Shown: piece by piece, positions 4,153 to 10,538 of the stretch | Layout: each line of letters opens with the position of its first letter | Numbering within the stretch: position 1 is the stretch's first letter | Origin: Candidatus Cryptobacteroides equifaecalis | Lineage (GTDB): Bacteria; Bacteroidota; Bacteroidia; Bacteroidales; UBA932 | Reading direction: 5' to 3' | Assembly: GCA_018064625.1 (NCBI GenBank) | Contig: JAGHUW010000148.1 | Span: 1 to 35,688, forward strand | DNA length: 35,688 bases | Program-made: the position numbers and the translations under genes | The notes under the pieces: model-generated | Told to the model about the DNA's origin: nothing | Seen by the model: the letters and a program-made list of their open reading frames with translations, nothing else | Database searches by the model: none

Positions 4153-4344
4153 ATGAAAAATACAATCAAGATCTACCTCATGGCATTATGGTTCACGGCT
4201 GCGTTAGTACTGCTTGGTTCCGGTACCGGAGAATTCAGCTGGACAAATGGAATCGGACTGGCATTGTTCGTTGCTTTTGCATTGTTCACACGAATCGCCG
4301 ATAAGAAAGGCTGGGTCAAGCTTAACGAAACAAACGAAGCATAG
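4153..4344 (+). CDS. Small two-TM membrane protein
   Basis: 63-aa ORF with two hydrophobic segments. Confidence 0.55.
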   Translation: MKNTIKIYLMALWFTAALVLLGSGTGEFSWTNGIGLALFVAFALFTRIADKKGWVKLNETNEA

Positions 4345-4364: not shown

Positions 4365-4465
4365 ACCCCCGTAGTTCAACGGACAGAACAGTTCCATAGG
4401 GTTACTATACTTACCATGGACAGGAAGATGGAGCAGATGCGGGTTCGAATCCCGCCGGGGGACCA
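4365..4465 (+). tRNA. tRNA-like element with about 34-nt anticodon loop
   Basis: Acceptor cccccg(4366-4371)/cggggg(4456-4461)+ACCA; T8A9; D-stem gttc/gaac; anticodon stem gttcc(4391-4395)/ggagc(4430-4434) enclosing 34 nt; T-arm gcggg-ttcgaat-cccgc. Confidence 0.55.
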
Positions 4466-4488
4466 AAATAAATCAAAAACTGACCGCA

Positions 4489-4890
4489 ATGTTAAAGGCG
4501 AATGATAAAAGGCTCGTTGCCGTCCTGGTGAAACTGGACGGGCATTTTGACGACGGTACCGTCAGCCAGTACCGTCACAGGTTCATCGGACCGGGCAGTG
4601 ACGCCCAGATCCTACGCTTCAAGGATGACGTCTCTGTCGGTGAGACCTGTCTCCTTTTTGAGCTTTACAACAGGGACGCCTCGCCTGTATATAAGTGCGG
4701 CTACCTGGCGCGCAAATTCCTTGCAGCAGCACTTGGTTATCTCGGCTTCCGTGACATCCTCGTTTCTGTCATAATCGCAGGAGACCCGGACCGCTTTCCG
4801 GTGCACGGGGCGTTTCAGCCCGCGAAGAGTCTTCCCGAGGCTCTCGGCCTGTTCCGCAAGGCCAGGTTCACAGACGTTTCGGAGCAGTAA
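4489..4890 (+). CDS. Hypothetical early phage protein
   Basis: 133-aa ORF in early operon. Confidence 0.5.
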   Translation: MLKANDKRLVAVLVKLDGHFDDGTVSQYRHRFIGPGSDAQILRFKDDVSVGETCLLFELYNRDASPVYKCGYLARKFLAAALGYLGFRDILVSVIIAGDPDRFPVHGAFQPAKSLPEALGLFRKARFTDVSEQ

Positions 4891-4909: not shown

Positions 4910-6943
4910 ATGGAGATAATCAACGATAGAGTATGCGTCACAGCTGGCGAACTTGATGGAATCATAGGTTATGAGACAATCAAGAAACTTGCCCAGCGTG
5001 GTCAGGCGGAACGCGCCCAGCGCGGCTGCAAGGACCGTGCATCCCTGTTCTACGTTGATTCCCTCCCGTACAAGTACCGCACCGAGGTGCACAGGAGGTT
5101 TCCGGACCTTGAGTCCCGTGCGGAGAGCAGGCCTTTCACCGAGTCGGTGGAGCCGGACGGTGAGGCGTACGCCTTCTACGAGGGCTACACCTTCGCCAAC
5201 GGAAGCCATCTCACCCCGGAGAAGATAGAGGAGTACAGCAACAACGCTGCCGTGCTCAACTCGTTCCGCCGCTGGCTGGAAGTGTCGAACGGCATGAGGA
5301 GCAAGACCGGGCACAGGAAGGTAAGGAAGGGCGAGTTCTGGGCCATGGCGGCCAAGGCCGTGGAGAAGATGGCGGACACGTTCCCCAACACCCTCCCGTC
5401 CAGCGAGAGGAGGCTCCAGGAGAAGTTCAACGACTACGAGAGGGACGGCTACGTTGCGCTCATCAGCGGCAAGCACGGCAACAGCAACGCCGCCAAGGTG
5501 GAGACGGAGGCCCAGAAGGCCGCCATCAGCGCGCTGTGCGCCATACCTAACGGACTGAGCAACGCCTTCGTGGCAAGGCAGTACAACGACGTCATGAAGA
5601 GGACCGGAGGCGAGACCATCACCGCCGGCACCGTGGGGAGGCTCCGCAAGGAGAACGGCCTTGCCATTGACGCCATGCGCCACGGCAGCAGCCATTTCTC
5701 CAACACCCGCGCCATGCAGGTGTCACGCACCAGGCCTACGGCGGCCATGCTGCTGTGGTCCCTGGACGGATGGGATGCGGAGCTCTACTACCAGAAGCGC
5801 AACGCCAAAGGCGTGGTCACGTACAACAACAGGAAGGTGCTGGAGGTGGTGCTTGACGCATGCTGCGACTATCCGATAGGCTACGCAATAGGCGACCAGG
5901 AGGATTCGCAGCTCATAGCCGAGGCTCTGAGGAATGCGGCCAACCACACGAGGGAGCTGTTCGGATCGCGCTACATGACATGCCAGATCCAGAGCGACCA
6001 CTACGCATTGAAGACAATGACGCCGTACTACTCCACCGTTGCCGACAAGGTGACTCCGGCCAGGGTGCGCAACGCCAAGAGCAAGCCGGTCGAGAGATAT
6101 TTCCTTGACATCAATGAAAGATACTGCAAGACGCAGCAGAACTGGAGCGGTTACGGCATCACGGCAAAGAAGGAGCACCAGCCGAACACGGAGTACCACA
6201 ATCTCGTGAAGAAGAACTTCCCGGACGAGGAGGGAGTGATCAGGCAGATTGAAGAGATCATAGCCGTTGAGCGTGCGAGCAAGCTGGAGGAGTACATGAA
6301 GTTCTGGGAGCTCACACCTGCCGACAGGCGGCTTCCTCTTCCGGACGAACGCTTCCTGCTCAGGTTCGGCAGGAGCAGCGGCCACACCAACGTGCTTCAG
6401 GGGCAGGGAATGTGCCCAAGGATAGGCGGAGTCAGACGCCAGTACGAGTGCTTTGACATAAGCTTCAGGGACAAGGCGTACCTGCGCTGGGACATCAGAT
6501 ATGATGAGAGCGACCTGAGCCATGTCCTTGCCGTGAGCGAGGACGGCAAGTACAGGTACATGCTGGAGGAGAAGTATCTGCAGCCAATGGCCCTTGCCGA
6601 CAGGAAGGAGGGTGACGCACTGCAGCTGGAGAGGGTGCGCGACTACAACAGGGCGCTGACCGACCACACGAGCGAGATGTTCCTTCAGATCAGCGAGCAT
6701 GCCAGGCCGCTGATCAGCGGAATGGCCGCCGAGGCGCTGGAGAGCCCGGACGCACACAACGTGCTTGCCAAGGAGCTGCTGACTGACAGCCGCGGGCAGC
6801 ACAAGAGCCGCAGGGCCGGCGAAAGGCGCAGGCTCGCCGCCGCGGCAGCGGATGCGGAGGACATCCAGCCCGTTGCGGTTCCGGTGGTTGTTGAGAACGC
6901 TCCTGCAGGAGAGAACAGGGTGAACACGTTCGACCTTTATTGA
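4910..6943 (+). CDS. Mu-type transposase A (DDE, rve core)
   Basis: LLWSLDGWDAELYYQKR...VLEVVLDACCDYPIGYAIGDQED core followed by MuA C-terminal-like region; immediately followed by a B-like ATPase. Confidence 0.88.
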   Translation: MEIINDRVCVTAGELDGIIGYETIKKLAQRGQAERAQRGCKDRASLFYVDSLPYKYRTEVHRRFPDLESRAESRPFTESVEPDGEAYAFYEGYTFANGSHLTPEKIEEYSNNAAVLNSFRRWLEVSNGMRSKTGHRKVRKGEFWAMAAKAVEKMADTFPNTLPSSERRLQEKFNDYERDGYVALISGKHGNSNAAKVETEAQKAAISALCAIPNGLSNAFVARQYNDVMKRTGGETITAGTVGRLRKENGLAIDAMRHGSSHFSNTRAMQVSRTRPTAAMLLWSLDGWDAELYYQKRNAKGVVTYNNRKVLEVVLDACCDYPIGYAIGDQEDSQLIAEALRNAANHTRELFGSRYMTCQIQSDHYALKTMTPYYSTVADKVTPARVRNAKSKPVERYFLDINERYCKTQQNWSGYGITAKKEHQPNTEYHNLVKKNFPDEEGVIRQIEEIIAVERASKLEEYMKFWELTPADRRLPLPDERFLLRFGRSSGHTNVLQGQGMCPRIGGVRRQYECFDISFRDKAYLRWDIRYDESDLSHVLAVSEDGKYRYMLEEKYLQPMALADRKEGDALQLERVRDYNRALTDHTSEMFLQISEHARPLISGMAAEALESPDAHNVLAKELLTDSRGQHKSRRAGERRRLAAAAADAEDIQPVAVPVVVENAPAGENRVNTFDLY

Positions 6944-6984: not shown

Positions 6985-7842
6985 ATGAAAAAATCAGAAA
7001 AACAGGCGATAGCCGACAACCTCAGGACGTTCTGCGCCATCAAGGGGTCCCAGAACGCAGCGGCGCGCTCCATCAGCGGTGTGAGCAGCGCAACCATTTC
7101 ACAGATCCTCACCGGGCAGTGGGACCTGATCAGCGACGAGATGTGGCGCAGCGTTGCGTCGCAGACCGGATATGACAGGCACGGGTGGAACGTGGTGAGG
7201 ACCCGGGGCTTCCAGCGCATAAGCGAGATACTTGCGGACGCAAAGGACAAGTCGCTGGTGATGGCCCTGACGGGCGAGGCCGGATGCGGCAAGAGCGAGA
7301 GCATAAAGGTCTTCGCCAGGAACAACAGGAACGTCTACCACGTGGTCTGCCAGGAGTACTGGAACAGGAGGAACTTCATGACCGAGATGCTTGCGCAGCT
7401 GTCCATATCGAGCGCCGGCTGCACCGTGAGCGAGATGATGACGGACATAATATCGGCGATAAAGAAGAGGGAGAGGCCTCTGATCATCCTTGACGAGGCC
7501 GACAAGCTCAGCGACCAGGTGCTGTATTTCTTCATTTCCCTGTACAATTCGCTTGAGGATGACTGCGGCATCATACTGTGCGCCACCAACTACCTGGAGA
7601 AGCGCATAGCAAAGGGCGTGAGGATAAACCGCAAGGGATACAACGAGATCTTCTCGCGCATCGGACGCAAGTTCATCCCGATAGAGCAGGTGAACGGCGA
7701 CGACGTGGAGGCGGTCTGCAGGGCCAACGGCATCACCGATGACGGCGTGATAGATGAGATAATAGAGAACTGCGACTATGATCTGCGCAGGGTGCGCAGG
7801 CTTGTGCACGCGGCCATCAAGCGCATGGAGGCAAGGTCATGA
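6985..7842 (+). CDS. Transposition protein B-like AAA ATPase
   Basis: N-terminal HTH; Walker A LTGEAGCGKSES; Walker B PLIILDEADKLSD. Confidence 0.88.
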   Translation: MKKSEKQAIADNLRTFCAIKGSQNAAARSISGVSSATISQILTGQWDLISDEMWRSVASQTGYDRHGWNVVRTRGFQRISEILADAKDKSLVMALTGEAGCGKSESIKVFARNNRNVYHVVCQEYWNRRNFMTEMLAQLSISSAGCTVSEMMTDIISAIKKRERPLIILDEADKLSDQVLYFFISLYNSLEDDCGIILCATNYLEKRIAKGVRINRKGYNEIFSRIGRKFIPIEQVNGDDVEAVCRANGITDDGVIDEIIENCDYDLRRVRRLVHAAIKRMEARS

Positions 7843-9732: not shown

Positions 9733-9828
9733 GGCGGTGAAAGCCGGACAAGAGGTGCAAGCCGGCGAGGGTTTTTGTATTGGTTATTTCCCTGTATTTG
9801 AGCCCGGGTTCGAATCCCGGCACCGCCG
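9733..9828 (+). tRNA. tRNA-like element with about 18-nt anticodon loop
   Basis: 7-bp acceptor ggcggtg(9733-9739)/caccgcc(9821-9827); D-like stem gccgg/ccggc; stem aggg(9768-9771)/ccct(9790-9793) enclosing 18 nt; T-arm ccggg-ttcgaat-cccgg; no encoded CCA. Confidence 0.5.
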
Positions 9829-9869: not shown

Positions 9870-10538
9870 ATGGAAGAAAAACAGATCAGAATGAGCGAGG
9901 AGGAACTCAGGGAGTTCCAGGCCTTCAGAGCCGAGAAGGCCAGGAAGGAGGAGGAAGCCAGGCGCAGGAGCGAGAGGGACAGCTACAGGGAGATGGTGGA
10001 TGCGGAGATTGCCGCCGCCATCCCGGAGCTCAGGAACATCAGCGGCGACCTCAAGGCGGTCAAGGACAAGGTGTATGAGAACTTCAGGGCCATCCTTGAG
10101 ATGAAAGCGGACATGTTCCGCAGGAACAGGGGCGAGGAGATGGGCAACTTCAGCCACACCTTCACCAGCAGCGACGGGCGCATGTGCATAGTCCTTGGCA
10201 GCAACGCCTGCGAGGGCTACCTCGACACTGCGGAGGACGGCGTTGCCATGGTGAGGGAGTACATCGAGTCACTGGCGATGGACGAGAAGAGCAGGGCCCT
10301 CGTGTCCATGGTGCTCAAGCTGCTTGCCCGCGACGCCAAGGGGACGCTCAAGGCCCAGCGCATAGTGCAGCTGCACAAGCTTGCCGACGAGTCCGGGAAC
10401 GCCAAGTTCCAGGAGGGCGTGAGGATAATTGAGGAGGCATACGTCCCGAGCCGCACCAGCACCTACATCAAGGCAAGGGTGAAGGACGACGACGGCGTGT
10501 GGAGGAACATCCCTCTCAGCATGACGGACGTGAACTGA
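9870..10538 (+). CDS. DUF3164-like phage protein
   Basis: Charged N-terminus then KADMFRRNRGEEMGNFSHTFTSSDGRMCIVLG...; typical of Mu-like early regions. Confidence 0.6.
   Translation: MEEKQIRMSEEELREFQAFRAEKARKEEEARRRSERDSYREMVDAEIAAAIPELRNISGDLKAVKDKVYENFRAILEMKADMFRRNRGEEMGNFSHTFTSSDGRMCIVLGSNACEGYLDTAEDGVAMVREYIESLAMDEKSRALVSMVLKLLARDAKGTLKAQRIVQLHKLADESGNAKFQEGVRIIEEAYVPSRTSTYIKARVKDDDGVWRNIPLSMTDVN

Follow-up and report, generated by a model that had tools for sequence, protein, structure and literature searches.

In Mu-like phages that infect Bacteroidota of the gut and the rumen, an early gene, usually that of the transposase, is closely preceded by an RNA element built around the elbow of a transfer RNA (tRNA). 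We describe it from related phage loci and from a 35,688-nucleotide (nt) stretch of Candidatus Cryptobacteroides equifaecalis (contig JAGHUW010000148.1; the window, meaning this whole stretch), a Mu-like prophage in a Bacteroidales metagenome-assembled genome, in which the element occupies positions 4365-4466 of the forward strand. Judging from sequence and covariation, its acceptor/T-arm stack, its T-loop and the usual GG of its D-loop mimic the elbow half of a precursor tRNA, and the element probably directs cutting by the host's tRNA-processing enzymes rather than serving as a decoding tRNA. The reading that we favour, at somewhat better than an even chance, is that it acts in cis as tRNA-like punctuation of the polycistronic early messenger RNA (mRNA), where cutting by the host would free the downstream gene with a short leader. 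We would give an evenly balanced chance to the broader proposal, that such elements form an undescribed and widespread family of tRNA-elbow RNAs acting as intercistronic processing punctuation that controls transposase expression in Mu-like Bacteroidota phages, with repeated switching between a full tRNA shape and a 42-nt minihelix.

Conservation of the tRNA elbow ahead of MuA

Loci were collected through MuA homology from IMG/VR, from GTDB genomes and from the same genus and family, and were searched with a strict scan requiring a T-loop of the form TYCRANH and at least 11 of 12 pairs in the acceptor and T-stem. Strict elements lie no more than 500 nt 5' of the start of MuA at 75 of the 212 loci (0.8 in dinucleotide shuffles) and no more than 80 nt from it at 43 (0 in the shuffles). 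Matches are concentrated on the sense strand in the 500 nt preceding MuA; the strict scan found no element inside the first 2 kilobases (kb) of MuA and no antisense match either there or in the 500 nt upstream. The counts are lower bounds, since some loci classed as having no element show shorter versions by eye, while a relaxed scan yielded a few doubtful matches (L084, L115 and L161) that are not relied on. The next ATG, usually that of MuA and otherwise that of a small open reading frame (ORF), mostly lies 14-34 nt past the acceptor 3' end, and the median gap from the previous ORF to MuA is 137 nt with a MuA-adjacent element and 25 nt without. Named hosts with the element include Bacteroides finegoldii, B. 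salyersiae, B. acidifaciens, Phocaeicola massiliensis, Xylanibacter muris and Hallella bergensis.

Pairing is retained throughout: 271 of 276 stack pairs are formed in 23 non-redundant elements, against 151 after column shuffling, and relatives have 11-12 of the 12 stack pairs, far above shuffles, though the scan's threshold itself imposes this number. Pairing being a selection criterion, more weight goes to features outside the rule, namely a GG-looped D-arm in most of the 23 elements, TA at positions 8-9 in 13 of them and C at position 74 in most; in a larger set C74 is found in 64 of 76 elements, compared with 13% C in leaders. The acceptor/T-arm stack and the T-loop persist across phages, as do an N73-CAA tail like that of the host and, usually, the GG of the D-loop. 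Among nine elements of the type found in hankyphage, a widespread phage of human-gut Bacteroides, 13 pairs are changed on both sides (5.0 in shuffles, 1-6 in slid controls), three of them in the lower anticodon-arm helix. Compensatory changes in homologues, on which the original prediction from the window's sequence had been staked, are thus present. That prediction had also taken the preserved stems around a swollen loop to be a tRNA mimic or a phage regulatory RNA rather than random decay, and both ideas are supported by the conservation of structure and position over phages with very divergent MuA.

The element in the window and its neighbours read as follows.

4365-4466, forward strand: tRNA-like element (sequence; Rfam tRNA model; minimum free energy fold)
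4365-4371 and 4456-4462, forward strand: 5' and 3' strands of the acceptor, with N73 at 4463, then CAA
4372-4373, forward strand: T8-A9
4374-4389, forward strand: D-arm, GTTC (4374-4377) with GAAC (4386-4389), loop with GG
4391-4434, forward strand: anticodon arm, stem GTTCC (4391-4395) with GGAGC (4430-4434)
4396-4429, forward strand: 34-nt segment replacing the 7-nt anticodon loop, its length and sequence varying in every related phage group
4439-4455, forward strand: T-arm, GCGGG-TTCGAAT-CCCGC
4153-4344, forward strand: upstream ORF of 63 amino acids (aa), its stop codon 20 nt 5' of the element; no Pfam or PHROG match
4489-4890, forward strand: downstream 133-aa ORF, its ATG 26 nt past the acceptor 3' end; no Pfam or PHROG match
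4910-6943, forward strand: MuA-like transposase (PHROG 310 transposase, E = 1.2e-46)
6985-7842, forward strand: MuB-like AAA ATPase, a DNA transposition protein (PHROG 296; Pfam AAA_22)

The location in an early operon had been correctly recognised, as had the acceptor, D, anticodon and T stems of a tRNA-type cloverleaf whose 5-base-pair (bp) anticodon stem encloses 34 nt, or 30 nt if two additional A-T pairs form. The acceptor does pair over 6 bp (4366-4371 with 4456-4461), giving 11 of 12 pairs in the stack, but the A-CCA end first proposed is more plausibly an A1-A72 mismatch followed by C73 and CAA, in agreement with the Rfam alignment; N73-CAA is read in most of the host's own tRNA genes too, so that 'ACCA' need not represent an encoded CCA end. 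The proposed check with tRNA-finding tools came out in two ways: Rfam RF00005 scores the element at 41.1 bits (gathering cutoff 29; E = 1.3e-6 with 3 kb searched, 1.6e-5 for the whole window), which places it in the tRNA structural family, and ARAGORN in its default search did not detect it. Its minimum free energy structure is the tRNA cloverleaf, and it is this specific topology that is notable; the folding energy is by itself unexceptional (z = -1.63, with 14 of 200 shuffles equally stable). The window's DNA had no match among GenBank phages, and the sole similar piece in 40 related genomes was 26 nt long.

The variable anticodon arm

The other half of the molecule behaves quite differently. 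Only 2 of the 23 non-redundant elements have a canonical anticodon arm of 5 bp and 7 nt; elsewhere there are loops of 17-34 nt, an extended hairpin, a probable pseudoknot, or no arm at all. As read by eye, hankyphage-type and several rumen elements combine a stem of 3-4 bp with an internal loop resembling AAA/A and a further hairpin. The anticodon arm is missing altogether from the mini forms (42-57 nt); where the linker of such a form is 11 nt long, a GG is mostly retained in it. The elements of loci L051 (76 nt) and L043 (43 nt), which are sisters in the MuA tree, share their acceptor and T-arms, and the D/anticodon domain is missing from L043. The tree implies at least nine switches between arm-bearing and reduced forms and at least 25 between presence and absence, in a FastTree reconstruction with several long branches where gains and losses are indistinguishable.

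Two further shapes were seen by eye. A putative pseudoknot that pairs the loop of the anticodon arm with the variable region occurs in L044:2297-2386, on the minus strand of L120 and in L192:1219-1307, with compensating sequences in the three lineages; a pattern search of viral contigs for more members gave none by eye in three new contigs. Just 5' of MuA in L004, L027, L034, L041 and L102 lies a reduced form with an AGCGATA-like loop replacing the T-loop and one additional hairpin, which may be derived or a separate element.

The frequent absence of a usable anticodon, or of the entire anticodon half, argues for a cutting signal rather than a decoding tRNA. RNase P gauges the T-stem/acceptor stack from the elbow and requires a T-loop-like loop, the D-loop being seemingly dispensable (PMC4919913), and its non-tRNA substrates include transfer-messenger RNA (tmRNA), the phage C4 and M3 RNAs, and mRNAs (PMC11143913). 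The stack and T-loop expected of an RNase P or RNase Z substrate are present in the window and in its relatives. We infer that the element is cut, since it keeps the parts by which such enzymes recognise a substrate, varies in the part that they can do without, and is closely followed by a start codon. Host RNase P would cut on its 5' side, and RNase Z, of which the host has a homologue, or another tRNA 3'-trimming activity would cut at or after N73. The downstream message, MuA or the small gene before it, would then be freed with a short A-rich leader before its AUG, and its separation from the upstream regulatory genes could set its stability and translation. The anticodon arm, dispensable for such cutting, would be free to swell, be replaced or vanish.

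Competing explanations and known systems

We count in support of host-cut punctuation the sense-only peak before MuA, the ATG spacing, C74, the mini forms, the L051/L043 pair, the host RNase Z homologue and the second elements described below. Other points weigh against it. The strict scan selects for pairing, making the acceptor/T pair count partly circular; by the criteria used, the element is missing from 112 of the 207 classified loci, which makes it dispensable for the group; and the extended hairpin conserved in anticodon arms of the hankyphage type suggests a role added to that of punctuation.

An uncut leader, a cis-acting tRNA mimic controlling downstream translation or stability, is the strongest rival, though we think it unlikely. 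Such a leader would bind a factor that recognises tRNAs (EF-Tu, the ribosome, or a synthetase or modification enzyme) or insulate the start codon; the evidence of position and structure applies to it equally, and the covarying hairpin that the hankyphage-type anticodon arm retains speaks for it, but the host-like tail past N73 and the shrinkage to a minimal substrate of RNase P type suit processing better. Less likely still is a trans-acting RNA, the processed molecule acting elsewhere, for instance in antisense fashion or by decoying host factors that target tRNAs, with the variable arm as its working part. The complex and partly conserved anticodon-arm structures of some lineages would fit this, whereas the tight spacing to the start codon across phages and the loss of the whole arm in many point to a role in cis.

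We regard as improbable a decoding phage tRNA, either complete or spliced from an intron-bearing precursor, despite the Rfam match and a few relatives (L006, L020 and L026) with CAT loops of 7 nt that ARAGORN identifies as tRNA-Met. The canonical anticodon arm is confined to 2 of the 23 non-redundant elements, some forms are without any arm, and the window element has a 34-nt loop where a functional decoding tRNA has a 5-bp stem and a 7-nt loop. The original prediction's option of an intron-like insertion was rejected, as the middle part has no constant length or sequence and is absent, along with the arm, from many homologues. The 27 extra nt are far below the size of a group I intron, and to our knowledge the archaeal splicing endonuclease is not used by bacteria. 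A decaying tRNA pseudogene or chance structure, to which the degenerate anticodon loops and ordinary folding energy might point, is very improbable and is excluded at the level of the family by acceptor and T stems that are nearly perfect and show compensatory changes, the place and strand fixed over divergent phages and the near absence of such elements from shuffles.

Host-cut punctuation has a close counterpart in tRNA punctuation by RNase P and RNase Z, as in the mitochondrial mRNA model and bacterial tRNA-mRNA operons, where a tRNA shape also stands between coding regions near the next start codon; the phage element differs in not being a working tRNA, in often having no anticodon half and in that its cutting is a prediction. 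The C4 antisense RNA of P1/P7 and M3 RNA are likewise phage RNAs and proposed RNase P substrates (PMC11143913), but here a tRNA elbow directly precedes a start codon, and the Rfam C4 family gave nothing in the window down to an E-value limit as loose as 5. The tRNA-like domain of tmRNA, which is processed by RNase P, similarly has an acceptor and T-arm without an anticodon arm; no tag reading frame or pseudoknots of the tmRNA kind were seen.

Phage-encoded tRNAs share the cloverleaf in a phage genome, but nearly all of our elements have no canonical anticodon loop and their position is tied to a start codon. Hankyphage p00 has one element, 454 nt before MuA, which some records label tRNA-Arg and BK010646 leaves unannotated. 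In hankyphage OY725544 (L230:2066-2149), Aragorn calls the element tRNA-Arg despite there being no 7-nt anticodon loop. The word tRNA is absent from the main text of two hankyphage papers, and in text searches of one paper collection on tRNA-like elements from Mu-like or Bacteroides phages no listed paper, going by title and abstract, describes such an element, which is not proof of novelty. In phage Mu no element was found in the first 8 kb, and the transposase gene comes almost immediately after ner. If the proposal is true, Mu-like phages across Bacteroidota would share a control point in the conserved RNA that precedes their transposase operon, and the elements would provide a natural series of how far the tRNA shape can be pared down and yet be retained. 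They also caution that some annotated 'phage tRNAs' may not be tRNAs.

Second elements and other tRNA-like features

The window holds a second tRNA-like element some distance past the transposition genes, and related elements, a second conserved class termed class 2, were found in six other phages, five of these elements ending about 4-5 kb past the MuA start.

9733-9827, forward strand: second tRNA-like element, acceptor GGCGGTG/CACCGCC, T-arm CCGGG-TTCGAAT-CCCGG, 12 of 12 pairs
9870-10538, forward strand: DUF3164 protein gene (Pfam PF11363, E = 1.4e-12; PHROG 846), its ATG 42 nt past the second element
Class 2 elements in other phages: L036:8383-8466, L038:6151-6233, L042:7335-7412, L043:7808-7893, L051:7071-7152, L057:4299-4377

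With the Rfam tmRNA model the second element scores 21.6 bits, below the cutoff of 47. The class 2 signature is an acceptor followed by GACAGG or GTCAGG, mostly 28-45 nt 5' of an early ORF; the pattern used allowed a 4-bp T-stem, and requiring a perfect 5-bp T-stem gave no match. A multi-element scan covering 18 further phage records in whole or for the most part, along with hankyphage p00 and the window, returned 19 sense and 2 antisense matches; an equal amount of shuffled sequence gave 8, both strands counted, so several of the weaker matches are due to chance. In L076 and L210 two or three tRNA-like elements lie in the early region 5' of MuA, most of them preceding an ORF start.

Two Mu-like phages also have a canonical tRNA-Met (CAT) gene, initiator-like by eye (L274:15698-15771 and L290:18464-18537), followed after 78-113 nt by an ORF of 310-330 aa that is of capsid type by look only.
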